A stretch of 64,000 nt of DNA from Ancylostoma caninum (lineage: Eukaryota; Nematoda; Chromadorea; Rhabditida; Ancylostomatidae), in assembly GCA_037903475.1 (NCBI GenBank), contig JBAJFG010000361.1:248001-312000 (forward strand), given 5' to 3'. Within the stretch, counting starts at the first letter, position 1, and each line of letters begins with the position of its first letter. The position numbers were made by a program, and so were the translations under genes. This document shows positions 4,195 to 61,507 of the stretch, in pieces. Under the pieces are notes generated by a model. It saw only the letters and a list, made by a program, of their open reading frames with translations. It had not been told where the DNA came from and searched no databases.

Positions 4195-4411
4195 TGAAAC
4201 CCTTACAATCACCTTAATCACCTTGACTCCCGTTATTCTACGGGTATACCGAGCGGGCGCCAGCAATTCTTCCACTTGTCCCTCTCGCGAGCCAGAGTTG
4301 TCCAGTGTATTCTGTCCGTTCGAGGGACACGGAGAGCATCGTATCTATCCTTGAAGGGCTTCGTGAAGAAGTCTGACCATAGGGTCGGTGGTCTTCCTGT
4401 CGTGCGCTTAA
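4195..4411 (-). pseudogene. RTE retroelement: 3' end (C-terminus and tail), separated from its body at 19752
   Basis: On the minus strand, starting at the TTAA (4408-4411), the frame reads KRTTGRPPTLWSDFFTKPF, then YDALRVPR, then HWTTLARERDKWKNCWRPLG and a stop. This is the conserved C-terminal tail of RTE-type non-LTR elements. It is followed by a short tail with the repeated GATTAAGGTGATTGTAAGGG character that ends near 4195. The coding sequence continues exactly at 19752-19755, where the upstream half ends in W-T-P-R-D-V. This is therefore one retroelement split by a 15.3-kb insertion, not two fragments. Confidence 0.88.
4408..4411. other. TTAA target-site duplication, left copy
   Basis: TTAA lies between the RTE 3' half and the left terminus of the large insertion. 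The matching copy is at 19752-19755. Only one TTAA is needed to restore the RTE frame (V-K-R across the junction), so the second is a duplication made on insertion. Confidence 0.85.
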
Positions 4412-4645
4412 AGGCAGTGTCCAGGCAAAATTTTCGAGCTTTCGATTTCTGTGGTTCCTAGGCCAGTTTGGCTCCCTGATTCCAGATACGAAACTTACAG
4501 ATCAAAAAACCCGCGGAAAAACCCTTTTCTGAGACCCCTCCTAACTGATTCGGACGAGATGTCCGAGGGCCCTCCCTCTCGTCAGAGAGGGCGCAGAGAA
4601 AATCGAGAAATCGATTGTCAGCGGCAGTTTGCTGCCTCAGTTCAA
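4412..4645. mobile_element. Left terminal region of the large transposon
   Basis: This segment closely matches 61291-61507. It contains the terminus, GGTTCCTAGGCCAGTTTGG, a CCAGATACGAAACTTACAG run and CTCGTCAGAGAGGGCGCAGA. The shared subterminal sequence shows that both ends belong to one family. It is non-coding. Confidence 0.8.
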
Positions 4646-4660
4646 CTACTCTGAACTTTC

Positions 4661-4905
4661 TGCCCGCGGTGGACCCGCGGTACGAGGTCGATCCGCGGTG
4701 GATCCGCGGTTGCCCGCGATAAATCCGCACATGCCCACGGTGGACAACCGAGAGTGACGTCACTCCCGCGCTATGGCCGCACGTGCCCGCGGTGTATCCG
4801 CACATGCCCGCGGTGGACCCGCAGTAACATTGCTATCCGCGGTGGACCCGCACATGCCGCACGGTGGACCCGCACATGCCCGCGGTGGATCCGCGGATGA
4901 CTTTA
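4661..4905. repeat. Left CCGCGGTGGATCCGCACATGC array
   Basis: About ten imperfect copies of a unit of about 21 bp, rich in CCGCGG and CpG, end at GGATCCGCGGATGAC. Local GC is far above the surrounding DNA. The array is interrupted by GAGAGTGACGTCACTC, a palindrome. Confidence 0.7.
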
Positions 4906-5997
4906 CCATTTGAATTTGCACATCCGGACACCATTCAACTTCTTCCACTTGTTTCCTTCACAGTAATCATTGTCTCAGCAATCTATTTCACGTGTCTCAC
5001 CTTACCTCTGGACTGGAAATTTCCGCCGATAACCACCTCTAGAACTCGACTGTTTTTAACTGCAGCTCATTTTGTAGCTCTTGATGTGCTCTTTGCAAAC
5101 ATTGCAACCTCGTTGTTCAATTTTTGCAGCTTCTGCTTTCGTTTTCTCTTTCGTTCATGCCTTGTTCTGTTTTAGCGGGATTTGGTCTCCCAGTGATCGC
5201 CCTCGCTTTCGCGATATCCAGTGTCTCTGTATCCTCATTTTACTACTGACGAGGAGGTAAGTGAAGGATCGCTCCATTGTTTCCTTATCCCCAAAACCTT
5301 TCCGTTTGTTCCAGGTCGACCGTCAACTGGAGAAATCCCGTCTCCTCTGTCAGCGTCGATCGCGTCACAGTTCTGTCGTTCCGGTGTCAGGTGCGATTTC
5401 AATATACCAACAATCGGCGATCGTTCAGTGGAACTGGCGCGCAGAGGGCTTCTTCTGAAGTACTCCCACCACCTCCCGTGCGGTCCTCGCATCATTAGTC
5501 ATCGCTACAGGAGCCATCGCAACCTTCGGTAATGGTATCGGTTGCCTTCGAATTGTTTTCTTTCTCTTTGAAGTCTTACTATTCAGCTTTCATCCTTCCG
5601 CGATCCAACCTCTGATCAGCCTCTGATGACCATCCAACCTCGGTATTTATGTGCTGTTTTATTTCTTTGATGTGTTATTCCATCATCTTTACCTCGAGGT
5701 GGGATGGGGACGGCAAGAAATATATAACATGGCAATCGCCTCCGGATTTGCTGATTTGAACCTCATTCAATTCGTTCTTATTGAAGAGCTTGCTTTATGA
5801 ATTACGGTGTTCTTACATATTGGTTCCTTACCATTGAAGAGCTTTGAAGAGTCCACGAAATAGTTATGTAATAAATGAAGTAAATAAAGTGAAGCTATAG
5901 TTCATTTATATGCTATGGTTCTGTTAGTACCATTTTACAACTGATATCGTTATGCGTTCCATAAGGTGGAAAAGGCATGTTTTTCATTTGCACGCTT

Positions 5998-6205
5998 CCC
6001 GCGGTGGATCCGCACATGCCCGCGGTGGCGCCGCAGTACATCCGCGGTGGATCCGCACATGCGCACGGTGGATCCGCACATACCCGCGGTGGGTCCGCAC
6101 ATGCCCGCAGTGGACCCGCAGTAAATCCGCGGTGGACCCGCACATGCCCGCGGTGGCGAACCGCGGATCCACCTCGGGCGTACCGCGGATCCACCGCGGG
6201 CAGAA
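5998..6205. repeat. Right CCGCGGTGGATCCGCACATGC array
   Basis: About nine copies of the same unit run in the same direction as the left array. Only the outermost part (about 6140-6205) is inverted, forming the element's right terminus. Confidence 0.7.
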
Positions 6206-6217
6206 AGTTCAGAGTAG

Positions 6218-6460
6218 TCAGTTCTTTTCCTCCAGGGTCCCGCATCTCTGCTTGACTACAACATTTTGATCAATTTTAGCCCGAATAGGTAAGTTTCGAT
6301 CATTGCTATTCTCGGCAATGTATGTTGGCAATGCAGAGACCTTTTTCCACGAATTCAGTGTTGTTGTTTTTTGCCATTTCTTGTCAATTGTGCAAGATTT
6401 TCCGGTTATTTCGTAACAATTTGCAATCAACCAAGATGGTTGAATGTATTCATCTGTATT
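6218..6460. repeat. Diverged copy of the 289-bp 'A' repeat
   Basis: TCAGTTC, then a TTCC/CAGGGTC block, then CGGCAATGTATGTTGGCA followed by GCAGAGACCTTTTT matches 61508-61796 and 63311-63599. In this transposon family the A segment follows the terminal segment directly. Confidence 0.65.
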
Positions 6461-7540
6461 TCAAAATCCGCAATGACGTGAATGTTAAAACACAGAGGAG
6501 TGCATTCAAATAGTCTATGAGGTTACTGGTGTACATGTGTATGAGAGGGGTGAAGAATGAGGAGAGGGCGACGCATTGAAGTGTGTAAATTTTTCTGTTA
6601 CTTTTTTCGCATTGGAAATACCATAGCACGACAGCTTATTTGGGTTGTCTATCACAAAATTGAAAATTATGTCTGAAAAACCAGCTTATTTGATTCCTTG
6701 AGGTACGGTCGTTGCTTTATTTTTAATTTCTCTCGATTTTTGACTTCCGATTCCCTCTGTTGCAATGCTCCACATTTCGGATCAACACTGGCATTCATTG
6801 CCTTTCTTCTTCTTTTAAATAGAATTTCCCATTCCAACTTGTTATTTCGGCATGCTCATTCTTTGAAGAAGAGGCTACATCAACTCTACTATTATATTCA
6901 CAACAGATCGCAAACTTCGCTCGTTATCAACTTCGGTCAGACCAGTTTTGGAGTATCCCCAGACCTAGGCAATTGACGCCCTTGCCAAGACAACAACTAC
7001 GATTGAAGCATTTATCAAACGCGGGAGGGACGATGAAGTATGTACGGGAAGCAATCATCATCTCTTTGGAAGGCTTCCAAACGAGGCTCACCTCTTCCCG
7101 TCGGAACTCAACTTTATTACCTGTACTACGTATTTCGTGAAAATGGGTTCAAGTTGAAGCGATAACTGAAGTAGAAGTAGAGAAAATATCAGTTGCAACG
7201 ACGCACCAACCTCACTTGTTATCATGAGATCCCACGTCTGGAAGCTTTTCTTTTGCCTTATCTATGTGGCCAACGGGATGGCTACCGCCGAAACCTGTGA
7301 ACACTCTTAACGACGCAATTGGGGGAATTATGTAATTTCGTCACTGCATTAGTAGTGTTCTCGGATATTGGTCAATATCATAGTAGAGATTGTGAGTGAG
7401 ATCAATTGAAACTGCTTTTTAAAAACCGTCATGCACCACCACTGTTGCGTGCACAGCAGCTTGCGACTGTCCTGAAAGTGCTATGTACCGCCTATCCGAA
7501 ACGACGGGTCCGCCGGCACGGTGAGGCGTCCATAGTATAC
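6461..7540. other. Interior of the large transposon, no recognisable gene
   Basis: Short frames only, AT-rich, with no motif or repeat that I can name. Confidence 0.35.
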
Positions 7541-7544
7541 TTGT

Positions 7545-7760
7545 GACCGAATCGAATATATTCGAAGAAATGTTCGAATATTCGAATATTCGAATAATTC
7601 ATTTATTCGGTTTTTCGAGAAGAGAGCAAATCCGAACAATTCATTCATTCGGCAATCTTGAAATGTGGATTATTCGAACAATTCATTCATTCGGGTTTCT
7701 CAAAACATAGGTTATTCGAATAATTCGTTCATTCGACTGAGAGAAACGGTGTTATTCGAG
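7545..7760. repeat. TTCGAA-rich repeat, 'ATTCATTCATTCGG' subtype
   Basis: This starts with GACCGAATCGAATATATTCG, a terminus shared with other copies in the window. It then alternates TTCGAATA blocks with AATTCATTCATTCGG blocks. It is palindromic at the level of the TTCGAA core and non-coding. Confidence 0.7.
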
Positions 7761-8734
7761 CTTTGAACTGTTATGATGTCGAGGAAGGAGAGCGTGCAGC
7801 ATCGTATAACGAGGTCATGCCTTGAAGGTGCGTTGCAGTACCATCCATCTCAGGCAAATAGCCTATCATAACGTGATATGCCTCAAGGCTGACCTTTGCC
7901 AGAGCAAGTTATGGAGATTGTTTATGGCGGTAAAGCACACCTACCAGGTTAAATATAAATAAGGGGATGGGAGCATGCGCTACACCCTACAAGAACCTTA
8001 TTCTTCTTTCTTCTTTCGGTCTTTTCTGTTACCTTATTCTGTTGTTCTTACGCTTCTTTTGTTCAATATATCCTTTATCTTGATGTGGAAAGCTTTAGCT
8101 TCCCCCCCCCCCCTGATTAACCTCTGAAAGTCAGTATTTTAGAGGAAGACCAGGAGGTGTTCGGTCTAGCTATCCTAATTTCTGGAAATTTACTGAACCA
8201 GTCGCAGTGAGAAGCTAAGTAGGATACCTCGCATTGTATTTAAACATTTCAGAAAGCAGAAGAACTAAACTAAATCTAAAAACTGGATCTAAAAAAATCT
8301 AAAACTAAATCTAGAATTAAATCTAGAAGTGAAAGAAGACTTTTGAGAAATCAAAGGACAGACGAAATGGAAATTATTTTAGGCATATATATTTATACCA
8401 GTCTGGCCGTCCGGCTAACGCCGGACTTCCAGACTTCTATTGATGCTCGCTTCGCTCGCATACTGCACCTTGAAAGCAAACACAAAAGTGTAGATGGATT
8501 GATAAAATCTGCATCCTTCCACGCAGTTCTATCGCTCTCCTGAGAAACCCTTGATCCCGTAAGTGGTAGCTTTCCCCCATATGAACGAAGTTATGCTCTT
8601 CCATATGAGCGAAGTATATGGCCGTGAAGAACTGAGTGTAACCAATTCAGTGCAAATGTTATGTTGAAATGATTTAGGCTCAACTGGTTGTTGTTTTAAT
8701 TCAAGTGATAAGGGTCCACCGGTAGAGTTTTACA

Positions 8735-9025
8735 TTCGAAAATATTTTTCGAATATTCGAATATTCGAATTTTCGAATTTTTGGGGACCCCCGAATTTTC
8801 GAATATTCGAATTTCCGAATTTTTGCGAACCATCGAATTTTCGAATATTCGAACTTTCGAATTTTCTGAACCCACCGAATTTTCGAATATTCGAACTTTC
8901 GAATTTCTAGGGATCTCCGAATTTTCGAATATTCGAATTTTCGAATTTTTGCGGACCACCGAATTTTCGAATATTCAAACTTTCGAATATTCGAATGTTC
9001 GAATATTTATTCGAATAACATTCCA
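8735..9025. repeat. TTCGAA-rich tandem repeat, ~43-bp period
   Basis: Six units of CCGAATTTTCGAATATTCGAA followed by TTTCGAATTTT are separated by 8-10 variable bases such as GGGGACCCC, GCGAACCAT and CTGAACCCA. The period is about 43 bp. The regular spacing imitates a CRISPR array, but the repeat is a near-palindrome and the spacers are far too short. Confidence 0.75.
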
Positions 9026-9929
9026 TTTGGTAAAAACATTTTGTACCCATGCATGTAGGCGAACAAGGCGATATGTTTGCCAATCAAAACGGGCATGAAA
9101 CTTTTCGGGTAGTAAGTTTCATTTGCCGTTTTGGAATTTCTCACAACCTTCTCATGAGTGGAAGCTTGTGCTGCTGTGAAGTTGGTCCCTTATCGGTTTT
9201 AAAATTGGAACGGGCTGAAATTTCTAAGCTTAAGAACGTCACTTGAGGTCTGTTACCATCATTAAAGGATCGTAAAGTGGATGAAACCCTTCGTCCGTGA
9301 GAAGGCTTTCGCTTTAATATCTCCGTGTTGTGGTTTAACAAAACGTGGCATGGTAGTAAATGTAGAGGTGTTGATGCTGTAAAGACGATGTTGGGTACAG
9401 TAGTTCATTTACCTTGACCATGAATGAGTTTCCAGCTATCAACAAAAAAGCGTCAGCAAGATAAAAAACACTGTGTATTATCCCGTTCCTCATTATTACT
9501 TCTGTTTATCGGGTCCAACTGCATGCTTGTACGTTGAATGTTGAAACCAACAGAACTTCTATAACAAGAAGTCGGAGTATGTTTGGGCAGAAAGGATAAT
9601 AATAGATCTCAAGATTTTGTGTGAACTTTGAATTCCATAACTAACGGTGATGTACTTAGAAAGAGTTTAAACGGAGCAGTAGCCGGAAATCAGCTAAATA
9701 TAAGGAGGAATGTTGTGTAAAATTTTATATTATAGTTTGCAGTTCACTTACATAGTTCTGGAGGAAAGGCTTGAATAATCAGAAGTATAGTTGAAACTGC
9801 TGGTTTCTCAAGTCTCTAGAAAAGTACATAGGTAGGTTTCACCGGAGAGATCATCGTCGCCAATGTCGTATACCTCGTAGGATTGCAGTTTCGAAGCTTT
9901 CAAATGCTGTTGGTGGCTTTCGAATGCGT

Positions 9930-10285
9930 GCAAAGATACGAGCACGTTTTTGGGAAAATTGGGGTTGAAATGAGAAACTGGACTGGGGTTTCAATTGGAA
10001 TGGTTCCTCAGCGAGAAAATGGAACTGAATTAACAGTTGCGACGTAAAACAACTCCAAATATTCGAATTTTCCACCTAAAATTTTCGAATATTCGAATTT
10101 TCGAATAATCCCGGACCCTCGAATTTTCGAATATTCGAACTTTCGAATATTGCGGAGCCATCGAATTTTCGAATATTCGAATTTTCGAATATTCGAATAT
10201 TCGAATTTTCGAATTTTATGGGACCCCCGAATTTTCGAATATTCGAACTTTCGAATAAATATTCGAATTTTATTCGATTCGGTCA
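9930..10285. repeat. TTCGAA-rich repeat with a conserved unique flank
   Basis: A flank at about 9935-10050 (GGGAAAATTGGGGTTGAAAT, then GAGAAAATGGAACTGAATTAACAGTTGC) is followed by four ~43-bp TTCGAA units. It ends in ATTCGATTCGGTCAAAACTCTA. The complete arrangement recurs in reverse at 63600-64000, so flank and core move as one element of about 350-400 bp. Confidence 0.75.
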
Positions 10286-10472
10286 AAACTCTATCCACCG
10301 GTGTATATAAATGGAAAGGAAGGAGTGGTTCTTCTCCAAAGGAATGGGAAGAGAACACCGATACGAAAGGAAACAACGTACATCTAGGTGATTTAGGTAG
10401 AAGGGTCCGCCGAAACAGGATAAGCGTACCCCTCATGCAGGAATAGACCCGCCTAGCGACTTCCTATTAATT

Positions 10473-11030
10473 GTGGAAGCCGGCGCAGCCTTATCACACC
10501 GTTGGACCCGACTCCAGGCTTTTCCCCACTTTTGGACGCCGGCGCACCCTTACCACACCGTTGGACCCGACTCCAGGCTTTTCCCCACTTTTGGACGCCG
10601 GCGCACCTTTATCACACCGTTGGACCCGACTCCAGGCGTTTCCCCACTTTTGGACGCCGGCGCTCCCTTATCACACCGTTGGACCCGACTCCAGGCTTTT
10701 CCCCACTTTTGGACGCCGGCGCTCCCTTATCACACCGTTGGACCCGACTCCAGGCTTTTCCCCACTTTTGGACGCCGGCGCTCCCTTATCACACCGTTGG
10801 ACCCGACTCCAGGCGTTTCCCCACTTTTGGACGCCGGCGCACCCTTACCACACCGTTGGACCCGACTCCAGGCTTTTCCCCACTTTTGGACGCCGGCGCA
10901 CCCTTACCACACCGTTGGACCCGACTCCAGGCTTTTCCCCACTTTTGGACGCCGGCGCACCCTCATCACGCCGTTGGACCCGTCCCCAGGCGTTTCCTCA
11001 CTTTTCGGCGCCGGCGCACCCTCCACACCC
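10473..11030. repeat. 59-bp minisatellite, about nine copies
   Basis: The anchor GTTGGACCCGACTCCAGGC starts at 10501, 10560, 10619, 10678, 10737, 10796, 10855, 10914 and 10973, giving an exact 59-bp period. Variation is limited to a few positions (GCACCC or GCTCCC; GCTTTT or GCGTTT). All three forward frames are open through the array for over 200 codons each. This follows from a stop-free unit whose length is not a multiple of three, and is not evidence of coding. A decayed inverted relic lies at 32405-32520. Confidence 0.92.
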
Positions 11031-11172
11031 TCCACACCGCGGTGCACTCACCGCTCTCCACTTCCCCATCCTTTAGAGCTTCTCTTCATTCTTTGAACCT
11101 CATCATACCCGTCCCTATCATCTTGTTGACCTCTTAATCACCATCACTGGCCAATCAGGGAATTTCGTTTCT

Positions 11173-11294
<122 letters not shown>

Positions 11295-11444
11295 ACAGAC
11301 GAAGTAAGCCCGTTATTATAAGTCATGATAGTCAGATCTCCTGAGATTTCTATGTGTAGGCAAATATGAGGAAAATGTGAGAATTTAATACTCTCATGAT
11401 GGTTATTTGTTAAATGCAATGCCAATGAAATTTGAAAAAAAACC

Positions 11445-11665
11445 GAATGTTCGAATCGAATATATTCATTCATTCGGTCTCCCGGAATATCCCTCTATTC
11501 CAACTATTCATTCATTCGGGCAGGCAAAAATACTTGATATTCGAATAGTTCGTTCATTCGCATATTGCGAAAACTGCGATATTCGAATTATTCATATTTC
11601 GAATGATTGAAATTGGGCAATATTCGAATAATTCGAAAGTTCGAATAATTGAAAAATCATCGAAT
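11445..11665. repeat. TTCGAA-rich repeat, 'ATTCATTCATTCGG' subtype
   Basis: It begins CCGAATGTTCGAATCGAATATATTC and continues with alternating ATTCATTCATTCGG and ATTCGAATAATTC blocks to GAAAAATCATCGAATATTCC. Same family as 7545-7760. Confidence 0.65.
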
Positions 11666-11739
11666 ATTCCCAAGTATAGTCCATAGGCGGCGTGGCTGTG
11701 ACGTATGCTGAGGTGTACATCTTGGCAGCGTGCAATAAC

Positions 11740-12046
11740 ATATAGTGGAGTCGTTTTGACAGTGCGTTTTCCGCGACAGCGGCTCCCTGGCATTGGAGCA
11801 CGCAGCGCGGTCGGTCAAAAAGTTGACCTATGATTCATCTAGTATCTTTGAAGAGTTTTGTAGCTTGTTTCTCCTTATATTGTTCTTTCTCAGCTCTTAG
11901 AACAAATGAAGAAGGGAACAGACGATAAAACCCGTCAAAGAAGCCGGATCCATCGTGGGTCGACTGTTTGACCGACCGCGCTGCGTGCTCCAATGCCAGC
12001 GGGGCCGCTACCGCGGACAACGCACTGTCAAAACGACTCCACTATA
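11740..12046. repeat. Foldback element with ~100-bp arms
   Basis: The arm at 11740-11838 starts TATAGTGGAGTCGTTTTGAC. It is the reverse complement of 11948-12046, which ends GTCAAAACGACTCCACTATA. The arms share GCGCGGTCGGTCAAA. The loop is about 110 bp. Confidence 0.8.
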
Positions 12047-12059
12047 CGTCACAGCTGCG

Positions 12060-13390
12060 CCGTCTCTGGAGTCCCGACCGCTTGGGCGGACCAGTCGTTT
12101 CGGACCTACAGTCCTCGAAAACAGGCGGATTCGGTGACTGCAGAATTGTGGTGGGATCACAACGGGAAGAGAGCATACTCCACATGACAGGGTAGGGTTG
12201 GTCCCGCACCGAATCTGCGGTCGCTATGCACGCGCAACCCTTCTTGTTTTCCAATCACTGTACTTCGGCTCTACATCTGGCTCTATTCCACCGACATTTA
12301 GAATCGGACTTGGAGTTGTTGCGTCACTCATTAACAACATTCTTCATGAGGGAAAGTTCTCTTGTTTCGTGACCTAGTATTTCGTCGTGTCCGTGCTTTG
12401 AAGATGGCCGTGGAGTGACCGCTGATTCATTTTCCCAGTACTGATATCTAGTACGCGGTGTGATTGCGCTGCTCGCGCTTGGGTCGTGACCGCAACAAAA
12501 ATCTATAGGGTTTTCTTTATAGTCCGTTTTCTCGATCCTAAAAATCGAATATGGTGAGAATTATCGGGAAAACCCTGAATTGCCACAACGGCAGTGGTAC
12601 GAGCGCGAGCGGGTCGGCCGCAGCGAGTGCTTCCCGTGTCAGTGAAGAACGCGCTGGCATCGACGCTTCCTGTACTGCTGGTGTCGTGAAGCTTCTTGGA
12701 ACGGTTCCAGTATTCTTGGCAGCCCTGTTTGGATAAGTTCCATGTGCAATTTGCCTAATTTGCTTTTGCTAACCTTCTCTTTTTCATATGTAGGAGCTTG
12801 TTTGTTAAACTATATACGTATAGGTTGAGAAATTCATCCACATTAGATCCACCGGCCGGCGTCTGTCGTTGAGTGGAAGGATTGAGAGGAGGGTAAATTG
12901 GTTCAAAGTTGATTGCAAAATTGTTACGAACGATCATTTATGTTGAAAGTCTACTTCAAACAAAAAAGGGAAAAGAATGGGGTGGGCATCCATCTTCAGA
13001 ATTAGGTCTAGGCTTGCGTTGGGCTAGTGGCATCCATTGGCCAATGGCAGAACTCGGCCGCAGTACCTTTTCCAGGCACACCGCTCTAAACCTGTACGCT
13101 CTATGTTGATTGTAGCACTTGCCTTATGATTATTATGGTCTAGCAACTGATTATTAATTCACCTGCCTGACTTCCTGTTGAAAGCCCGGCACGTGTGTCA
13201 GTTTGGAATAGTTTGTTTCCTTGATAAAAAAACGGAGAGAACCTCATTCATTTGTATTCAAAACTACCATCTAAATTCATCTACTTTCCCTATTATCAGT
13301 GTCGAAAAGCAACAATATATAATATAAGATACAATAAATATTAGCAATGTGTATCGTGTACTAAAACTTTCATGTTATTTCCTCCTCCAA
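12060..13390. other. Interior of the large transposon, no recognisable gene
   Basis: No inverted repeats or protein motifs recognised. The region lies downstream (3') of the transposase-like gene on the minus strand and may include its untranslated tail. Confidence 0.3.
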
Positions 13391-13394
13391 AGAC

Positions 13395-15527
13395 GTGCTA
13401 GACATGTCGACGTTTGCAAATCTCGACCGCCGCTGCTGTACGTAGGAGACTAGAATTTCCTTCCTCCAGATATGCTGTATCGGCGTTTTGTAGCGGATGG
13501 ACGATTGTCGCTGCTTAAATTTTCGTCGCACTTTGCTAGATCATTCAATACGCACCTCTCCACTGAGTTCGGCCATGCGAAGGGTGTTCATATGCAATGT
13601 CGATAGCTTCGCATATAAAGGATAAGTGACTAGAGGCCTGAAAAGTGGAATTGTTTTATGGATTAGGCGAGGTCTTGCACACAATTATGGACATACAAGT
13701 AAATTTCTTTTGAGCAGTATAGCCGGTCCAGAGAGTTTTTGGATTCACAGTGACTAGTTCCACCGTATGGACTGGCCATTACGAGGTCTCTCTGGAAGCT
13801 GTGGTGCAGTATGATTTCGTTCAATTTTTCGTGTGCCGCACTTCCGATCGCTATAGTTGCTTTGCCTCTTTCTTCGTCCGACGGAAGTTCTCCGTGTGCA
13901 CAACTGGTCAGCGGCCCTGTGATATCATCCTATAATCAGTTTGTTAATTACTCATCTTTCCATTCACCATCTTCCACACTACCTCTGTCCATGTATGTAT
14001 ACCAGCTACATGGTTTAGACAGCTGTTGAAGATATATTTTATATTGTTTCCATCTCCAGTAGCAGCTCCTATATCTACGGCATGGTACAGATGATCCTTT
14101 ATATCTCCAATCCAGTTCTTCAATGAACCGCATTCCCTTCTTTTCGCAGCCTCAAATATCCTCTGATGAGTAACTGGCGGAGATGACTATTGCTTGGAAA
14201 GTCTATTCAACTATCACACTACACCGTGCGTAGATTGCTGACCAGGTATCTTCGCAGGTGCCACGGGTCTAAGTACCACTTGACTTGACCCCCAAATTCG
14301 TTGTTGAACGCCCTTATTTCGCTGCCATACACAGAACTCCTGTCGGTGGATATCGAATGAATGGCCCTTCGATTCGAACCACCGCAGCATCCGTCGGAAT
14401 CCCTCCTTTTCCATCCTTCCGCTAAGATTTGCTGGAAGTGTATACGATTCTTCCAGGTTAAGCAGAGCACGTTGTTAGCGTTGAATGCGTACATTCGGAT
14501 TCTGCTGAGCTTACGTTGCCAAATGTGGGACCTCTGCTTGCAGGATTGAAATGGAATCATTCGCCGAGCCAGCAGTGAACTCAGGCTCTTTGAGTAAAAA
14601 AAAGATGTGCATTAGTAGGTACAGTTTTAGCAGTCCCAGTAGTTGCGCTATCAATCCACTATTGGAAATCCCCACTTGGCGAATCCGTATTGTCCACATT
14701 CTACCGCCAACCCTTTTCCTATATACTTTAGTCACCTGTTTCTGAACGATGCACCACTTCTCTGTGAATGCATAGCTTTGTTCTCAAGTCTACAGCTAAT
14801 ACTTTGCACATTTCTGCGCTGTAACCTCTGGAGTCGAAGGCTCCATCAACGGCAATATCCCAGCCTGCACTTCGGTTGTCGACCTAGATGCGTTGTCTCA
14901 TTCAGAATGGAAGTGAACATCCAGACTTGACCCACACGTCTTTCCCTCTAACAATAGGAGTGTACCTCATAGGCAGCTTTGATTTTATTAATCACACTGC
15001 ATTGATGTTTTTCATAGATCTTGTGTACTGAGGGGCGCAAGTCAGCAAAAATATTGTAATATGATATGCGAGAGGGTAGCGCCACCTGCCTCTGATGCCC
15101 ATCGTTTGAGAGCCTTAAATGAATCAGGATAACCTAGCGTTAATGAAGAATACAATGGAACTCACGCTTATCCTTGTGCCAGTCGTTATAGCCGCGGCAC
15201 AGGCTAGGGCATTGCCGTCGAATTGCTTTTCACTCGGGCGTTCCGTCAGCTTTTTTTGACCTTCCCATCTTCCAATCCTGGGCTTCGACCCCCAGTTACG
15301 TATTGAATCACAGGTGCTGATCCATATTCGATTAGGCGCACGAGGCCCTCACTATTTGTACCCTTCGAGCAATTCCTACATAAGTTGAAAAGCTCTAAAA
15401 GCTTCTCCCCCTGCACTAAGTAAAACTTCGAGAGAAGGGCTGGGCCTGTCTCTTCTAGAACTATCTCATCATCAGGGTCAACGGTCGAACCGGAGGACTG
15501 CTTCTTTAGTGAGAACACAGAACAGTC
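13395..15527 (-). pseudogene. Kolobok-like transposase gene, multi-exon, with frameshifts
   Basis: I follow one protein through at least six exons on the minus strand. Exon 15166-15527 (acceptor TTTCAG, donor GTGAGT) reads LLSKFYLVQGEKLLELFNLC, then NWGSKPRIGRWEG, then FDGNALACAAAITTGTRIS, with a one-base slip near 15297. Exon 14736-14883 carries WDIAVDGAFDSRGYSAEM (likely first catalytic Asp). Exon 14243-14431 reads RMEKEGFRRMLRWFESKG, then ISTDRSSVYGSEIR (second Asp) and WYLDPWHLRRYL, with a slip near 14347. Exon ~13957-14167 carries WIGDIKDHLYHAVDIG and NSCLNHVAGIHTW. Exon ~13655-13922 carries CAHGELPSDE and GGTSHCESKNSLDRLY (likely catalytic Glu). A last piece runs to ~13395. This D...D...E layout with D-x-WH is what I recall for Kolobok-type transposases, and these target TTAA, as this element does. 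Two frameshifts suggest it is dead, or mis-sequenced. Confidence 0.62.
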
Positions 15528-15596
15528 CTGAAATGGTTTCTCATATTGTTAACTTAAATGAAAAGCGGAATTTTACAAGCTAGGTTGACGTTTCAA

Positions 15597-15977
15597 AGGC
15601 AGTGTCCAGGCAAGATCCAGTGCCAGCCGGCTTCTTCGTGATTTCGTGAAAACATATTAAATGTTGTCTTTGATTGTGCAGACACGTGCTACTCTTTAAC
15701 ATTCTGGTTCCTCTTCTATAATCATGCTGAGAATGGCATTCACACCAACATATGTGAACTTGCTGAACATGATACTCAAGATGCTCGTTGGTTCACTATG
15801 GAGTACTATACAGTACTATACAGAGATAGGTGACGTACTATATTAGCCGCATATTGGGCTAGTACACAAAAGCTCGAGGCTTGTGAGGGTGAGAACGACA
15901 TAGTTAGAATCACCTCGTCGAGAAGCCTTAGAATATGCAAGATTGGAAGAGTCGAAAATTTTGCCTGGACACTGCGT
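15597..15977. mobile_element. Short internally deleted relative of the large transposon
   Basis: The left end AGGCAGTGTCCAGGCAAGAT and the right end AAATTTTGCCTGGACACTGC are the same termini as the 15-kb element. They enclose 381 bp, just upstream of the transposase exon 15166-15527. The flanks (TCAA and TCGG) no longer form a clean TTAA duplication, so the copy is old. It is a MITE of the same family lying within the presumed gene. Confidence 0.65.
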
Positions 15978-16191
15978 TCGGATGATGTGTTGTCCGGATG
16001 TTGTTGAAGAGCAATACTCGTCGTATCATAAACAACTCTCTCGATCCACACTAACCGTCTGCCTTCCCGATGACCCTGAATCATCGCGACACACAGCCGG
16101 TTGCGGCGCTGACGGTTCTTGTTCATACCATTCACCGGCTCCTTCTGACTCTTCTAGAGCGGGCGTCGTTTCTTCAATCTACACTGAATGT

Positions 16192-17309
16192 TCATGGGAG
16201 GCCACCATAATTATGCGAAATAGCCACTTGATACATAACCTCCATCTCTTCCTGAATATCGTCCAGCTGCCTCGAGTCATCTGCAGACCACCCACAACGG
16301 GAATAGTACCGACTGACGTAATAATTGATGTACTTGGAGACTATTCTCGCATTCATACAGAGACCGTCCTGATATGAATATATTTGCAGTATCAAATAGT
16401 TGGAAATCTATGTAAAGGTGTAGTTGAGGTTTATGTTTTGAAACATACTCCGAACCTTTGTGTGGATCTGTTCAAGCAGTTCACTAGATGGGAGGGAATT
16501 TCTCCTTCATTTATGTAGGCGTGGCCTTCCTTTGTGTGCGATAGCTTCCCTCCAGATACTACCACTTCTGCCAGCAAGTACTGGGCCTGTTGGAAAAAGT
16601 TAGTGAGAAGTGTCGATTTGTCATTACAAATGATGGACTGAAACTGATGGAGGATTAGCTGACTTCTGCTCAAAGTTAATTCATTTAGTCCTGTAGATTG
16701 AGACGTGCGGATGCCCGCAGCGTTTGTTCAGTGTTTTTTCTAGCAAGCAAAACTTTCTCAGATGTAGTACGGATTACTAGAGGTAATGATATATCATGTC
16801 ACGCAGACTAGAAAGAGTCAAGTGTTGCGGGCATCGGTTCATCTTCTTCCACAGGGCTAATATATAGACGAGTTTTGGTATTGGGTCGTATCCAATACTT
16901 TTTCGTAGAAGGAAATACTTGGAAGTTATATGTATAAGTCATTCCGAGATTGGTCCCCTCTGCTATCCAATGTAGTTTATCCATCAACATGTGTTGAACG
17001 GATGGATGCTAATTTATGTGCGGATAATTTAAACATCAGAGGCATGTTCATCCAGCTGGAAAACGTATACTGGATACGGACCTTGGGCCTGGCTACCCTC
17101 ATATAAGATCTTCTAGTGGCTCTGTAAGTATTAGGAAGCCGTTGATGGAACTTACTGCATTGAGAAAATGAGTGGTGCAGATGAGTTTGCGCGTCGCAAC
17201 ACATGCAACACTTCCTTGGCAGATTCACGGCCAGTACCAGTAAAATGCACGAGAGATCCAAGAAAGACTGCATTATGCAGTTGGTTTCTTGACTATCGGG
17301 TCGTAACAC
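16192..17309 (-). CDS. Probable upstream exons of the transposase-like gene (tentative)
   Basis: Several stretches are open on the minus strand and bounded by plausible splice sites. One is at about 16460-16590 (acceptor CCAACAG; AQYLLAEVVVSGGKLSHTK, then EIPSHLVNCLNRSTQR). It joins in phase to about 16200-16358 (acceptor TATCAG; DGLCMNARIVSKYINYYV, then QLDDIQEEMEVMYQ). Others are at 16808-16990 (WIAEGTNLGMTYTYNFQVF) and 16977-17309, whose frame is cysteine- and histidine-rich near its middle (CCMCCDAQTHLHHSFSQC). I recognise no family. Position and strand suggest the N-terminal half of the same protein or a companion gene. An N-terminal zinc finger such as THAP would be expected in a Kolobok transposase, but I cannot show one. 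Confidence 0.35.
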
Positions 17310-17765
17310 TTCTATTCACAATGTTCGAACACACTACACAAGTAGCAACTTGAACCATCTTAGATGAATATTCACCTATAAATTTCTTTTTCAATGTTGG
17401 TACTCCACGTGTGCATTCGAGAACGACATGGAAGTATATTGACGGATTATAGCTCCAATACGAGATCAATTAGCTCATAAAGTCTCTCAGAATCAGTGCA
17501 GAAACCCCTTGTAAATCTGTGATGTTGAAGCTTCCATGTTTTGTTATAGTGAGAACATACAAGTGGGAACGTAGATCGAGTTTATTATTTCAACGGAACC
17601 AAATTGAAGCAACGTATACACGGCTATTTCCACAAAGGAATAATAATAGTCTATTCGCTAATCATACTTTGATGAGAGAAAAGTAATATGAGAAGTAGCT
17701 TTAAAATATAAAGATTTGTAGTGATACAATAGATTAATGACATCGGGACACACTCATGTGATCAT

Positions 17766-17945
17766 CTAGAGCCTTGTAGGATCATGTGCGCTGATATCCA
17801 AAGTACGAATGCGTGGCGCTGGAGAAGAATACCATTGAAAGTTCTTCTGAAAAAATCTCACTTTGACAGAACATCTAACCAATGGATCTGAATGTGTTCC
17901 ATTCATCTGCGAGTGATCGAGCAGTTCGAGACCATAGGTTTTAGG
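17766..17945 (-). CDS. Unrecognised exon-like open frame inside the large transposon
   Basis: On the minus strand the frame KTYGLELLDHSQMNGTHSD, then RCSVKVRFFQKNFQWYSS, runs to a TAG at 17766. It has protein-like composition and no low-complexity character. I cannot fix the acceptor. It lies on the same strand as the transposase-like gene and could be the last exon of a second gene formed with 18421-18793. Confidence 0.3.
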   Translation of the reverse strand, partial: PKTYGLELLDHSQMNGTHSDPLVRCSVKVRFFQKNFQWYSSPAPRIRTLDISAHDPTRL

Positions 17946-18100
17946 TTCTCCCACGCACCCGTTTTTTCAGCTGTAGCACAATTACTTTGAAGAAGAAAGG
18001 CATTTGAACGTGAATGAGTATTGCTGCAAATGCCAAGGTTAAGCATCTACATGATAACATCATGTAGATACAAGAAAGGAAAATGCATGGAAATACCCAA

Positions 18101-18366
18101 CTACAGTGGACGCCAATGGCTGTGGCCCGTCCGCGGTCTTGCGAAGGACGCGCCGCCACCGCGTCGGAATCGATGTCGTCTTCCGGAATGCTATTTCTAG
18201 GCGCTTTCCTTTCCGATTTGGTCGAAAATCCTTGAAATTGGGCGAAAAGCTGCTAGAAATAGCATAACAACAGCAGAAAACATCGGTTACAGCGCGCGCG
18301 GCGCGGTTGCGCGACGTCCTTCTCGAGGCCGCAGATGGGCCAACGCCATTGACGTCCACTTTACGA
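18101..18366. repeat. Foldback MITE, 266 bp
   Basis: The ends CTACAGTGGACGCCAATGGC and (complement) GTAAAGTGGACGTCAATGGC are inverted. Arms of about 110 bp include GAAGGACG-CGC blocks and ATGCTATTTCTAG versus CTAGAAATAGCAT. The element is GC-rich and lies between two exon-like stretches, in the position of an intron. Confidence 0.75.
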
Positions 18367-18420
18367 GGCATGCATAGGCGTGAAAATCTAATTGATGAAA
18401 AGAATGTTTCACAAACTCAC

Positions 18421-18575
18421 TGTATTACGGGCTTGCCAACCATGCAAGAGTGCTTCCATTGAAATTGCGGGATACGAGAGCATACCCAAGACAAAACACC
18501 AAATGCGTTGTGAGTTCGACGGGTTATGGCTGTCAGCAACAGGGCGACCTCGGTGCATGTTTCTCGAGTGTAGAT
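18421..18575 (-). CDS. Unrecognised splice-bounded exon (51 codons)
   Basis: Minus strand, acceptor TTTCAG before 18575 and donor GTGAGT after 18421. With the preceding exon 18695-18793 it forms one open frame reading SEKFHLHSRNMHRGRPVADS, then NSQRIWCFVLGMLSYPAIS. Length (155 bp) and phases fit exactly. No family recognised. The opposite strand is also open and cysteine-rich but lacks good splice sites. Confidence 0.4.
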
Positions 18576-18694
18576 CTGAAATCATTGAAAAACTTTCAGA
18601 TAAGCAATCCTAACTAGTTTTGATATCCTTTGGAAGCATGCTGACCGGCACGAAACGAAAAAAAAAACTGATAACGATGCATTACTCTACTCAC

Positions 18695-18793
18695 GAAATT
18701 TCTCGGAAAAGGAAGTGGAGCCCTTCAGTTCCATTGAAACTAGTTCCCTCTTGGATGTGGTTGTTAAACAAGCTAACAATTTCTTCTTGAGTA
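18695..18793 (-). CDS. Unrecognised splice-bounded exon (99 bp)
   Basis: Minus strand, acceptor TTTTTTAG and donor GTGAGT. In the frame that joins 18421-18575 it reads LKKKLLACLTTTSKRELVS, then MELKGSTSFSEKF. Two frames are open through this short exon, so coding is not certain. Confidence 0.35.
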
Positions 18794-18799
18794 CTAAAA

Positions 18800-19730
18800 A
18801 AGATATAGAATGACACTATTTACAGGTCGGTAACAAATCTGTGAAAGTTCAACGAAAACCAAAGTTTAATGAATAGCTGAAAACAAACCGAACTGGATGG
18901 TTGTTCCCCTCATTCCGTTTTATGGCTCATAAAATTTGTGACCAGCTTGGAAATACAAAGAGCACGCTCATAGTATATAATCCTTCTTCATCACGAGTTG
19001 CCATTTTCGATCGACCGTAGCTAAGTGAAGCAATTTGGACTGATAAAAGCAGATAGATAAATGAAAAAGAGAATGGAAATATCCACCTACAGAAGAATGG
19101 GCAAGAAAAACAAATTAATGAAAGTCAAACACTCACAAAGTCATGTAATTAGTATACACTTCCGAATCCATCTCTGCTGAGGGTTAGTGCATTCCATTTC
19201 GCGCTTCACTCGATCATTCACGCTACAAACATGAAAGACATAGTCAAGAGATGGAGATATCGACCTGGAATAACGAAGCAAAAGCTACCAAAAATACACG
19301 CAAACATTCTAAATTTAATTAGAAAATAAAGAAACCGCTTGGATCACATTTTGTTACGATTAATCTCTGCATCATGGCAAATGATTGATCGATAGTGTAA
19401 AGATCGAGATTGATTGGGAAAACATTGAGAAATATAGCAATAGAAAAGCAACGAAATGTTTTGATCATCAATATCGACCTGTGTAGAGAGACGAAAAAAC
19501 CAGCAAAGAGACGCCGCCATAAACGGTTTGATATTTTTCCGACGATGCTCCACGTTACGCCAATTTCACTCGCAAAGTGGTGGACGGCTGGTGGGCGGGG
19601 CGGGCACTGGAGATGGGTACTGGGTGTAAGCCGAATATCTCGCTTCTTTCTGCGTCTTTTTCGCTGAAACTTTGGCAAATGCTTAAGGAGTCGACCCGCT
19701 ATCATAATGTAATGAGCACTCATGTTCAAT
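18800..19730. other. Right subterminal region of the large transposon
   Basis: A minus-strand frame at 19319-19740 runs on from the RTE coding region through the right terminus and encodes no recognisable domain. This is accidental read-through. It contains CCACCTACAG-type splice-like sites but no exon I can defend. Confidence 0.35.
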
Positions 19731-19732
19731 GG

Positions 19733-19755
19733 TTTTGCCTGGACACTGCCTTTAA
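19733..19755. other. Right terminus and right TTAA of the large transposon
   Basis: TTTTGCCTGGACACTGCCT ends at 19751 and is the exact reverse complement of the left terminus. TTAA at 19752-19755 follows, and then RTE coding sequence (reverse strand G-R-P-T-W for the next codons) resumes. Confidence 0.88.
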
Positions 19756-20860
19756 CGTCCCGTGGAGTCCAGTCGCTGACGGCTCTTGTCCAACGGTTGT
19801 CGTTAAAACGCATCACGTGTCCGGCCCACCTCAACTTGGCGTAAGCGGCAGCGTCCCTGATCTTCGATTGTTGACGAAGGGTGGAACTCTGTATTCCAGC
19901 CCTCACTTGCGTGAGGCGGGTTATTCCTAGCATCACCCTCTCGATGGAGCGTTCGACGACGCTGACCGCATTCTCATCCTGCTTGCGTAACGCCCAGGTT
20001 TCTGAAGCGTAGGTCAAAGCAGGGAGAACGGTTGTGTTGAAGAGGTGGGTATGGAGCTTGGTGTTCTTCGTCTTCTTCACTACGTCCTCGATGCTCTTGT
20101 AAGCTCCCCAAGCCGCTCCTTTCCTCCTGCCCAGCTCTGGAGCGAGGTCGTTCATCATGTTGACTTTCCGACCTAGGTATACGTAGGTGGAGCATTCGGA
20201 TATGGTCGTTCCGTTGAGCGAAAATGGGGCATCCGGGACCCATCCGTTTGGAGACCAACCTTTCCACATGCGTCCTCGAAGTCGGCCAGCATCTGTTCCG
20301 CTTCGCTGATGGTTGGTGTTATAAGAACGATGTCGTCAGCGAAGCGAAGATGGCTAAGTCGCCGGCCATCAACTTGCACTCCCATGCTATCCCATTCCAG
20401 TTTCCGCATGGCGTCTTCGAGAGTGGCGCTGAACACAGTATCGCCTTGTCGAACCCCTCTGTTGACGTCGATGGTGATGTCGTCGTAGAATGGAGAAACC
20501 CTGTCGTGAAGTTGCTGTAGAGCTCACGAAATATCTTGATGTATTGAGTAGGTATGCCCTGGTTGCCCAGGGCTTCCAACACCGCTTCTTTCTTCAAATC
20601 GATGAACGTGAGACAGAGGGGCATCTTATACTCTCGCGATACTTCGATGAGTCTAGTGACGGTGTGTATGTGGTCGATCGTACTGAATCCTTTTCGAAAC
20701 CTTGCTTGCTCGCACGGCTGTCCCTCGTCTAGTGTCCTTTCGATCCTGTTGAGGATCACTCGCGTGAAGAGCTTGTCGACGACGGACAGCAGGCAGATGG
20801 GGCGATAATTGCCAATATCCTGCGGGTCTCCCTTCCTATACAGTAACACGGTCCTACTGG
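19752..20860 (-). pseudogene. RTE retroelement: reverse transcriptase body, 5'-truncated and frameshifted
   Basis: Minus strand from about 20855. The first frame reads YRKGDPQDIGNYRPICLLS, LDEGQPCEQARFRKGFSTID and LCLTFIDLKKEAVLEAL. The residues normally following FIDLKK (AFDSVE-like) are deleted, removing part of motif A. A frame change near 20460 leads to GDTVFSATLEDAMRKLEW and HLRFADDIVLITPTI (the FADD catalytic box). A second change near 20235 leads to APFSLNGTTISECSTYVYLG, LRWAGHVMRFNDNRWTRAVS and finally W-T-P-R-D-V at the TTAA. The 3' tail continues at 4411-4195. No endonuclease domain is attached, so this is a 5'-truncated LINE copy of about 1.3 kb that was the target of the large transposon. 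Confidence 0.88.
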
Positions 20861-20894
20861 ACCCTTACAATCAATTGATGAAAATGCAAAGCTA

Positions 20895-25679: not shown

Positions 25680-26600
25680 TGGCAATGTCGTTGTAGAATG
25701 ATTAGCGTTTGATGGTGAAGTTCCAATATAGCTCCCGAAATAACCTTGATGTATTGAGTAGGAATGTCCTGGTTGTTCAGGGCTTCCAAGGCGACTCCTG
25801 TCTCAGAGTCGAAGGCTCTCTTCAAGTCGATGAACATAAGGCAGAGAAGCATTTCATACTATCATGATACTTCAATGAGTCTCGAGACCGTGTGTATGTA
25901 ATCTACCGCACTGAATCGTTTTCGAAACCCAGCTTGCTCGCGCGGCTCTCCTTCACCCAGTGTTCTTTTCATTCTGTCAGGGATCACTCGCATGAAGTGC
26001 TTGTAGATGACGGACCGTATTCAGATAGGACGACAGTTGTAGGTGTCCTGTGGGTCTCCCTTCTCGTACAGCACCATGGTCCTGCTAATCTTTCTTCGGT
26101 TAGATACCTTGCATTCCGACAGGTACCGCGTGAAAAGTCTAGCCAAGGTGTTGATAAGAACTGGCGGTAGCTTCTTCAGATGTTCATGTCGAATCCTGTA
26201 GAGACCTGGTGCTGTACGATTCTATTTAGTATCTTGATATACTGATTAGGAACCCCCTGGTTATCCAGAGCTTCGCTGACCATGAAATTGGATTTCCGAA
26301 GGAGAACTGATGGGATAAAATATCCTCCCTGAGATAATATAGAGAGAGGTGGATGTAGCTGTCGAAGAGGTCCGAGTTGAATTGGTAGATGACCTTCTCC
26401 ATTACCCTCATGGAAGAGGAGTTCGTTACATTTTGACTTCGGAGGGCTGTCACCTTCATCTTGCAATCGGCGAACACACGTCGGGAGTTACGGAAGCCTT
26501 TATTGGTGTTTCTAGAACCTTCAACTTTTTTTGCGCTTTCGCGGAGATGTTGGGTGAGCAACTCGTCAATGCTAACGACAACGACATCTTCTCAAAAGCT
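25680..26600 (-). pseudogene. Rearranged RTE reverse transcriptase fragment
   Basis: Minus strand: 26560-26290 gives SSSMRVMEKVIYQFNSDLFDS and its continuation, the linker upstream of the RT domain. Then SEALDNQGVPNQYIKIL appears, which belongs about 150 residues further downstream in a normal copy. From 26222 the upstream order resumes with NRTAPGLYRIRHEHLKKLP, LARLFTRYLSECKV, EQAGFRKRFSAVDYIHTVS and CLMFIDLKRAFDS, then ALEALNNQDIPTQYIKV. A downstream segment has thus been spliced in ahead of its proper place. Many frameshifts are present. 26600-26990 may be a further upstream relic but I cannot place it. Confidence 0.75.
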
Positions 26601-40205: not shown

Positions 40206-41340
40206 ACTAGACGGTATGCCCGGCTTCGCTCGGGTGTTCTATTACCCCGGCTATTTCACGCTGATGAGGAAATCTGCTACTGCCTGTAAATCCATTGAAA
40301 ATGCTCATCATTTTGGTGATTAACACGCTGACGGAACCGAATGACCCTCATACCGATATATTGGTGAAAAATGGAATAGTGAGTTATTTGGATAATAACT
40401 TTATGGAAAAAGCATGCCATATTTGCGATCAGCATCTTTGAGAACCTCAGTAAATGTGCTTTTACTCGTCCCTCAGAAGTAGCGGAGAAAGCCAGAAACT
40501 TGATTAAAAATCCGATAAAACCAATAACTCGATGCTCCATACATAGTGGTTGTCATAATTGTGATCAGCGCATAATTCCAGTAGACATGTCTTCACTGAA
40601 CCCCGAGTAGAAGCTGTCAAAATTCGATGAAATCAGTGACTCGATATTGTCATTCAAAACGGTTGTTATAGTTGTGTTCAGCACATTCGAAAACCCCAGT
40701 GGGCATGTCCCCACCGATCCCCAAGCGAAAGTTGTGAAAAATCGATAAAATCAATAAATCGATACCATCACTGAAAGCGGTTGTCATGTTTGTGTTCAGC
40801 ACATTCGAAAACCCCAGTGGGCATGTCCCCACCGATCCCCAAGCGAAAGTTGTGAAAAACCGATAAAATCAATAAATCGATACCGCCATTGAAAGCGGTT
40901 GTCATATTCGTGTTCAGCACACTCGAAAACCCCCAGTGGGCATGTCCCCATCGATCCCCGAGCGAAAGTTGTGAAAAATCGATAAAATCAATGAATCGAT
41001 ACCGTCACTGAAAGCGGTTGTCATGTTCGTGTTCAGCACATTCGAAAACCCCAGTGGGCATGTCCTCACCGATCCCCGAGCGAAAGTTGTGAAAAATCGA
41101 TAAAATCAATAAATCGATACTGCCATGCAAAACGGCTGTCATAATCGTGCTCAGCATTCTGAAGAACCCTAGTAGACATATCCTCGTCGACCCCTGGACA
41201 AAAATAGTGAAAAATCGATAAAATCGATATAATCGATAAAGCAATCGATAATCCCAGGTGCAAAGTAGCCTATAACCTCCGCCGGCCCCCGTTGGGCCTG
41301 TATGCAAAATTTGGTCCGGATCGGTTCATCCTCCGCGATT
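40206..41340. mobile_element. Non-coding element with ~118-bp tandem units, ending in a conserved tail
   Basis: It starts ACGGTATGCCCGGCTTCGCTCGGG. It then has about six units of about 118 bp (about 40547-41260), each with GTTGTCATGTTCGTGTTCAGC, CCCAGTGGGCATGTCC and ATCGATAAAATCAATAAATCG. It ends GCAAAATTTGGTCCGGATCGGTTCATCC immediately before the (ACACAA)n/(AC)n run. A CCCGGCTTCGCTCGGG head and an AAATTTGGT...GATCGGTT tail before a microsatellite is a pattern I associate with short retroposons. The exact class is uncertain. Confidence 0.6.
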
Positions 41341-41354
41341 TCTATAAGGAACAT

Positions 41355-42299
<945 letters not shown>

Positions 42300-60568: not shown

Positions 60569-61507
60569 CTAAAACCAAAACAACATTGGATTGAATTGAA
60601 TCTCGAAGCAAACAAAGACCAATGCAATCTCTCAATTCTCTGCCGATGAGGGGAGAAAAACTGGAGTAATCACAAAAAAAAAACGGAGTCCGAATTTAAA
60701 AAGGTCATGAAAATCATTTCCATATTTCAACATTGGAAAACGAATCGATACAAAATTTCCTTCTATTCTGCAAAGCACTTTTGGAAAACTTGCCGAATGA
60801 TATTGAGGGATGGGGGCTCAGAAATCGCACTTGCGACGTGACTCAAGATCAAATTGCTGTGACGGGCAAAAAGTGACACGCGTTTTTGCTCTTTTCCATA
60901 ACCAACAAATGAGTACGGTTCTTTCAATAGAACGGCATGTGGAACCACTACTTCGTGTGATATCGTACAATCACTCCAACTAGCGCAGATCACCATCAAT
61001 TTGCCCACTCAACTATGCAACCTCCACGCTTGACGTGCTACTTGAATGAAAAGATTACTAAGCTTCTGGGCCTGGATGCATAATTGAGATTACCCAGAGT
61101 TAACGTGTCGACGACCGATAAATTTGTGGGATGTTAAGACATTTACTCTGGATAATCTCAGTGATGTATGCTAGATGCTCACCAGTCCATGGAGCTCCCG
61201 ACTGCTCTAACGGAAATAACATCTCCTTCTTTTTCCTTTTACTGATCGTTCAAGCAATAAAACTGAGCGCTCCCACGAGCTCATCCTTAAAGGCAGTGTC
61301 CAGGCAAAATTTTCGAGTATTCGGTTTCTGTGGTTCCTAGGCCAGTTTGGCTCCCTAATTCCAGATACGAAACTTACAGATCGAAAAACCCTTTTCTGAG
61401 ACCCCTCTTAACCGATTCGGACGAGATCTCCTCTCTCTCGTCAGAGAGGGCGCAGAAAAAAAACTTTCATCGATCGATAGCGCCCGTTCGCCGCCTCAGT
61501 TTTAGCT

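Follow-up and report, generated by a model that had tools for sequence, protein, structure and literature searches.

Transposases of the Kolobok superfamily insert their elements at TTAA, and the elements have 5'-RR ... YY-3' termini. The transposase carries a DDD/E triad with a C/DxxH signature between the second D and the E, and a Cys/His cluster between C/DxxH and the E in which the third-position C is highly conserved (PMC9587614). An N-terminal THAP DNA-binding domain is usual (PMC6004289), and the superfamily has already been recorded in nematodes (PMC9587614; PMC11118728). Here we describe a TTAA-flanked element of 15,340 bp at positions 4412-19751 of a 64-kb stretch of Ancylostoma caninum DNA (contig JBAJFG010000361.1), which we call the window; coordinates are positions within it, on the forward strand unless given. 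Our results make it highly probable that a Kolobok cut-and-paste transposon of about 8.7 kb entered an RTE retroelement at TTAA in a strongylid-like nematode and later grew to 15.34 kb.

Two described systems come close. With XKol/Kolobok and the T2 miniature inverted-repeat transposable elements (T2-MITEs) of Xenopus tropicalis (PMC6004289), the element shares the TTAA target, the AG terminal bases, a DDE transposase with a Cys/His motif and a pattern of large full-length copies (6.8-13.9 kb) alongside plentiful MITEs; it differs in its nematode host, its end sequence, its multi-exon decayed transposase and a size that includes nested insertions. The lengths of ten full-length copies from Xenopus run from 6,763 to 13,907 bp (PMC6004289, Table 5), so 8.7 kb falls between these extremes and 15.3 kb exceeds the upper one only somewhat. 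The novelty by size proposed in an earlier sequence-only reading of this DNA is overstated. With KolobokP the element shares the superfamily, TTAA, 5'-RR termini and abundant short end-only elements; KolobokP is also described as having terminal direct repeats some 450 or 660 bp long and a His-Me finger nuclease gene (PMC9587614). Self-comparison of the window revealed no direct repeat reaching 60 bp that the two ends have in common, and no His-Me finger nuclease was found among 20 open reading frame (ORF) pieces scanned with Pfam, a subset of all ORFs.

A TTAA-flanked insertion in an RTE retroelement

The ends of the element are 19-bp inverted repeats, AGGCAGTGTCCAGGCAAAA, at 4412-4430 (plus strand) and 19733-19751 (minus strand), which match perfectly over exactly 19 bp. 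One copy of the TTAA target site stands on each side, at 4408-4411 and 19752-19755. When up to three mismatches are allowed, the 19-mer occurs at five places in the window, against 0.03 expected by chance: the two element ends, an internal pair (15597-15615 and 15959-15977, one mismatch in each) and a site at 61291. Removal of the element and one TTAA restores a single 252-residue minus-strand RTE frame running through the junction (...WTPRDV/KRTTGRPP...). Together with the ends and the flanking TTAAs, this bears out the proposal that a single TTAA-targeted insertion split one RTE.

Both pieces of the host RTE lie on the minus strand. The left-hand one (4217-4411) carries the C-terminal part of the restored frame, ending at about 4236, and the right-hand one (19756-20864) contains the frame from about 20335, with reverse-transcriptase ORFs further right. 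The RTE copy at 358-870 is an independent empty site for the insertion: it aligns over the junction with 72% identity (384/535, 34 gap positions), the closest gap being about 25 bp from the junction. The segment 20506-20855, in the reverse-transcriptase region of the RTE, is 76% identical to 25715-26083, and the window therefore holds more than one RTE-related copy.

The transposase gene and its homologues

A decayed, multi-exon Kolobok-type transposase gene, with a predicted first ATG and predicted splice sites, occupies 13370-17358 on the minus strand, and its product is 33-55% identical to strongylid nematode proteins. The predicted catalytic codons, all on the minus strand, are those of the first Asp at 14845-14847 (in a VDGAFDS motif, whose other Asp is also possible), the second Asp at 14342-14344 (TDR motif) and the Glu at 13744-13746 (CES motif). 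The C/DxxH signature is present as DPWH (14269-14258), and a structure model of a homologue predicts an RNase-H-like fold. By our assignment of positions, the Cys/His cluster would be present too: C521 is invariant, C499, H502, H507 and H523 occur in at least 9 of 10 homologues, and the window has CLNH...H and CAH. With the 4-bp TTAA duplication and the 5'-AG ... CT-3' termini, the DDE triad and its signature uphold the Kolobok-like identity suggested earlier.

Two other families were considered and rejected. A piggyBac element is expected to encode a piggyBac-type DDD domain, and MuDR/MULE elements generate target-site duplications of 8-11 bp. Here the duplication is the 4-bp TTAA. The Mutator-like profile PF20700, the sole Pfam family listed for the transposase at E ≤1, matches it below the cut-off. 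As for piggyBac, its elements use TTAA but have non-RR termini (PMC9587614), whereas those of our element are AG/CT.

The element thus carries the multi-exon D-D-E gene of its own that had been predicted, but with a broken frame: there is an in-frame TAG at 17295, and the frame breaks near 15293 and 14354. Provided that the assembly is correct, this copy can very probably no longer produce a functional transposase. The first exon contains a CxxC and, in a comparison against 19 proteins, resembles P0005 (E 2e-4) and P0006 (7e-5). P0005 itself matches the Lin-15B-like profile PF25375 at 26.5 bits, under the cut-off of 27, and no THAP match was obtained. Strongylid proteins from Cylicocyclus nassatus (P0001), Ancylostoma duodenale (P0005) and Oesophagostomum dentatum (P0012), compared as proteins alone, belong to the same family and have the same motifs (36-50% identity, 95-97% of the query covered); they are annotated as unnamed, hypothetical or Mutator-like. 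In the open-licence literature searched, we found no paper on Kolobok with hookworm or with strongylid, and none combining any two of Kolobok, Mutator-like transposase and PF20700.

A search for the gene in the assembly to which the window belongs (348 Mb in 638 contigs) gave 125 matches, 10 of them in this locus; 94 of 227 candidates were scored, and the counts are lower bounds. No second close copy was seen among the scored matches, where identity outside the locus was at most 77%, the highest values being over short pieces. At eight loci with paralogous transposons, no TTAA-flanked inverted pair of ends was detected at the thresholds used, save a weak one at C50. C50 is the closest paralogue, and some 1.7 kb ahead of its transposase there is a TTAA continued by the first nine bases of the terminus described here. 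The transposase sits between TTAA plus AGGCAGTGT and a weakly matching inverted end with TTAA about 11.9 kb away (L057 403 to L057 12326, and L065). The C50 locus may be another long Kolobok element.

The suggestion of extra genes was not confirmed, since none of the 20 ORF pieces scanned in or beside the element gave a Pfam match above the cut-off. Ten of the ORFs scanned yielded two matches, both below the cut-off and in the same ORF. The matches below the cut-off were RVT_1 (E 9.9e-6) and 3keto-disac_hyd on an RTE piece, and DotA, TerC and DUF5478; all except RVT_1 were judged to be due to chance.

Short relatives, nested insertions and probable original size

The ends of the element recur throughout the assembly. 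The exact 19-mer occurs 415 times, in 333 cases (80%) next to TTAA, and TTAA plus the end with up to two mismatches occurs 943 times; the reversed controls for the exact 19-mer and for the mismatched search gave 0. Among the first 100 exact places listed there are 22 neighbouring inward-facing pairs, of which 12 span 887-932 bp, nine span 592-3,314 bp and one spans 22.7 kb. The last, at C81, was rejected as a second long copy and is not a single element, because L024 holds its own right end (one mismatch), forming a 744-bp element.

We compared 18 stretches, picked from the listed end matches together with the second family copy of the window. Sixteen of them combine a left block, starting from 4412 of the window element, with a right block that extends to 19751 or close to it; of the other two, L023 belongs to the M type described below and L025 covers a single end. 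The left subterminal block (4412-4603, plus strand) is 76-96% identical to the 16 relatives over its first 190 bp, and the right one (19501-19751, plus strand) is 75-86% identical over the last 250 bp. The short elements therefore share the asymmetric ends as relatives and do not descend directly from this copy. Within this family of the Kolobok superfamily, in which short relatives are numerous, the 15.34-kb element is a long member that bears a transposase gene. The second family member in the window starts at 61291 and continues past the window end (L009 2792-7144, C263); it is 4,353 bp long, has perfect ends and TTAA, and contains a repeat of the Y type (see below) and an internal duplication.

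The 15-kb length, which the sequence-only reading had taken as that of the element itself, is not intrinsic, and much of it consists of nested mobile elements, several with their own duplications. Five top-level insertions (N1, a three-deep stack of B, X and Y, N6, M and Z) total about 6.7 kb, and without them 8,670 bp remain. N1 (4649-6214) is bounded by inverted ends of 21 bp, outside which TA stands at 4647-4648 and at 6215-6216, and its tandem interior is rich in CCGCGG; from its ends we take it to be Tc1/mariner-like. The hAT-like B with its contents (7536-11678) is flanked by the 8-bp duplication GTCCATAG (7528-7535 and 11679-11686). Its own sequence, 7536-8396 and about 11331-11678, is 92-98% identical to the best copies listed. 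Inside B lies the dispersed repeat X (8397-11330, right edge approximate), which includes tandem units of 59 bp and a run of AC. Only 38 bp separate the segments corresponding to 8380 and 11350 in another copy of B, at C596, so X was inserted into B. X in turn holds the hAT-like repeat Y (8723-10293), with the 8-bp duplication TCCACCGG at 8715-8722 and 10294-10301; X occurs without Y in L017 and L057, and Y is also found in the family copy at 61 kb (L009, 91%). N6 (11745-12042) is a palindromic MITE with TATA on both sides, and its best copies listed elsewhere are 98-100% identical. M (15597-15977), a MITE of 381 bp with one-mismatch family ends and degraded TTAA flanks, sits in a predicted intron (16055-15528) of the transposase gene. 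Z (18102-18363) is a palindromic MITE and a common repeat, with matches mostly at 84-87%; when 17400-19480 was used as the query, 37 of 40 scored places matched Z alone.

Eight of the 16 relatives were aligned to the 8,670-bp remainder. On the left, all eight match from base 1, and in this alignment without N1 seven are contiguous across the N1 site (base 235): five reach base 404, L016 reaches 368 and L015 reaches 321. The eighth, L014, is broken at the N1 site by a sequence of its own. On the right, seven match to the last base and L026 ends about 50 bp short. In L022, sequence related to N1 is also present beyond a family member's end. For the stretch of about 1 kb at 18411-19414, the genome matches listed contain just two diverged relatives, C293 (71%) and C354 (76%); no family end was found within the 1.2 kb examined at C293.

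Elsewhere in the window, a 945-bp AC dinucleotide run, 99% regular, lies at 41351-42295, near an array of a 118-bp satellite (40611-41238).

Origin of the long copy

In the scenario we favour, a Kolobok-superfamily DNA transposon of about 8.7 kb inserted at TTAA inside the RTE. A transposase of the family would act on ends that are asymmetric, the left one about 190 bp and the right one about 250 bp, and would move long elements as well as short derivatives that arose by internal deletion, the short elements having been mobilised by this transposase or by a lost sister. The long copy would have lost its coding capacity and, by taking up five or more insertions (N1, the B/X/Y stack, N6, M and Z), would have reached 15.34 kb.

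Another possibility, which we consider improbable, is that a separate transposon, nested inside a TTAA element that was itself non-autonomous, brought in the transposase gene; ends and gene would then not form one unit. The linkage of gene and ends is seen at one locus only, many other repeats are nested in the same element, and the stretches adjoining the gene (12.05-13.37 kb and 17.4-18.1 kb) are unmatched in the short relatives. However, no second pair of family ends encloses the gene, the small M pair lying inside it, in a search that was not exhaustive for pairs of other sequence. Moreover, the gene belongs to a superfamily that produces TTAA duplications, and the closest paralogue, C50, has the TTAA and terminal bases before its transposase.

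Even less probable is that the full 15 kb moved as one genuine unit, carrying every internal repeat along as cargo. In favour of this, the outer ends match perfectly, both TTAA copies are intact, and the data leave the order of the last jump and each nested insertion unset. Nevertheless, N6 and B look young because they are up to 100% and 98% identical, respectively, to copies elsewhere, the left end differs by at least 4% from the 16 relatives compared, and the genome search reported no second copy with the gene. The sequence-only reading had counted the lack of another locus with the same end-to-end structure, or the joining of separate ends by misassembly, against a single insertion: a second full-length copy was indeed not found, but the ends with TTAA recur hundreds of times. 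A misassembly of two unrelated ends is rejected, since the end blocks recur together in 16 of the 18 stretches and the window holds a related RTE copy whose site is empty.

A new kind of element is not established, and the locus is a degenerate, ordinary if well-documented case of its superfamily. It is conceivable, though doubtful, that it represents a distinct strongylid Kolobok lineage, with a Lin-15B-like rather than a THAP N-terminal domain, an intron-rich gene, long asymmetric ends, this as the only remaining close gene copy and hundreds of short passengers. The locus ties the ends of a large family of short TTAA elements in this genome to a transposase gene, and provides a clear worked case of nested insertion inflating the apparent size of a DNA transposon. 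Finally, the shared motifs suggest that strongylid proteins filed as Mutator-like fit the Kolobok signature, which bears on their annotation.
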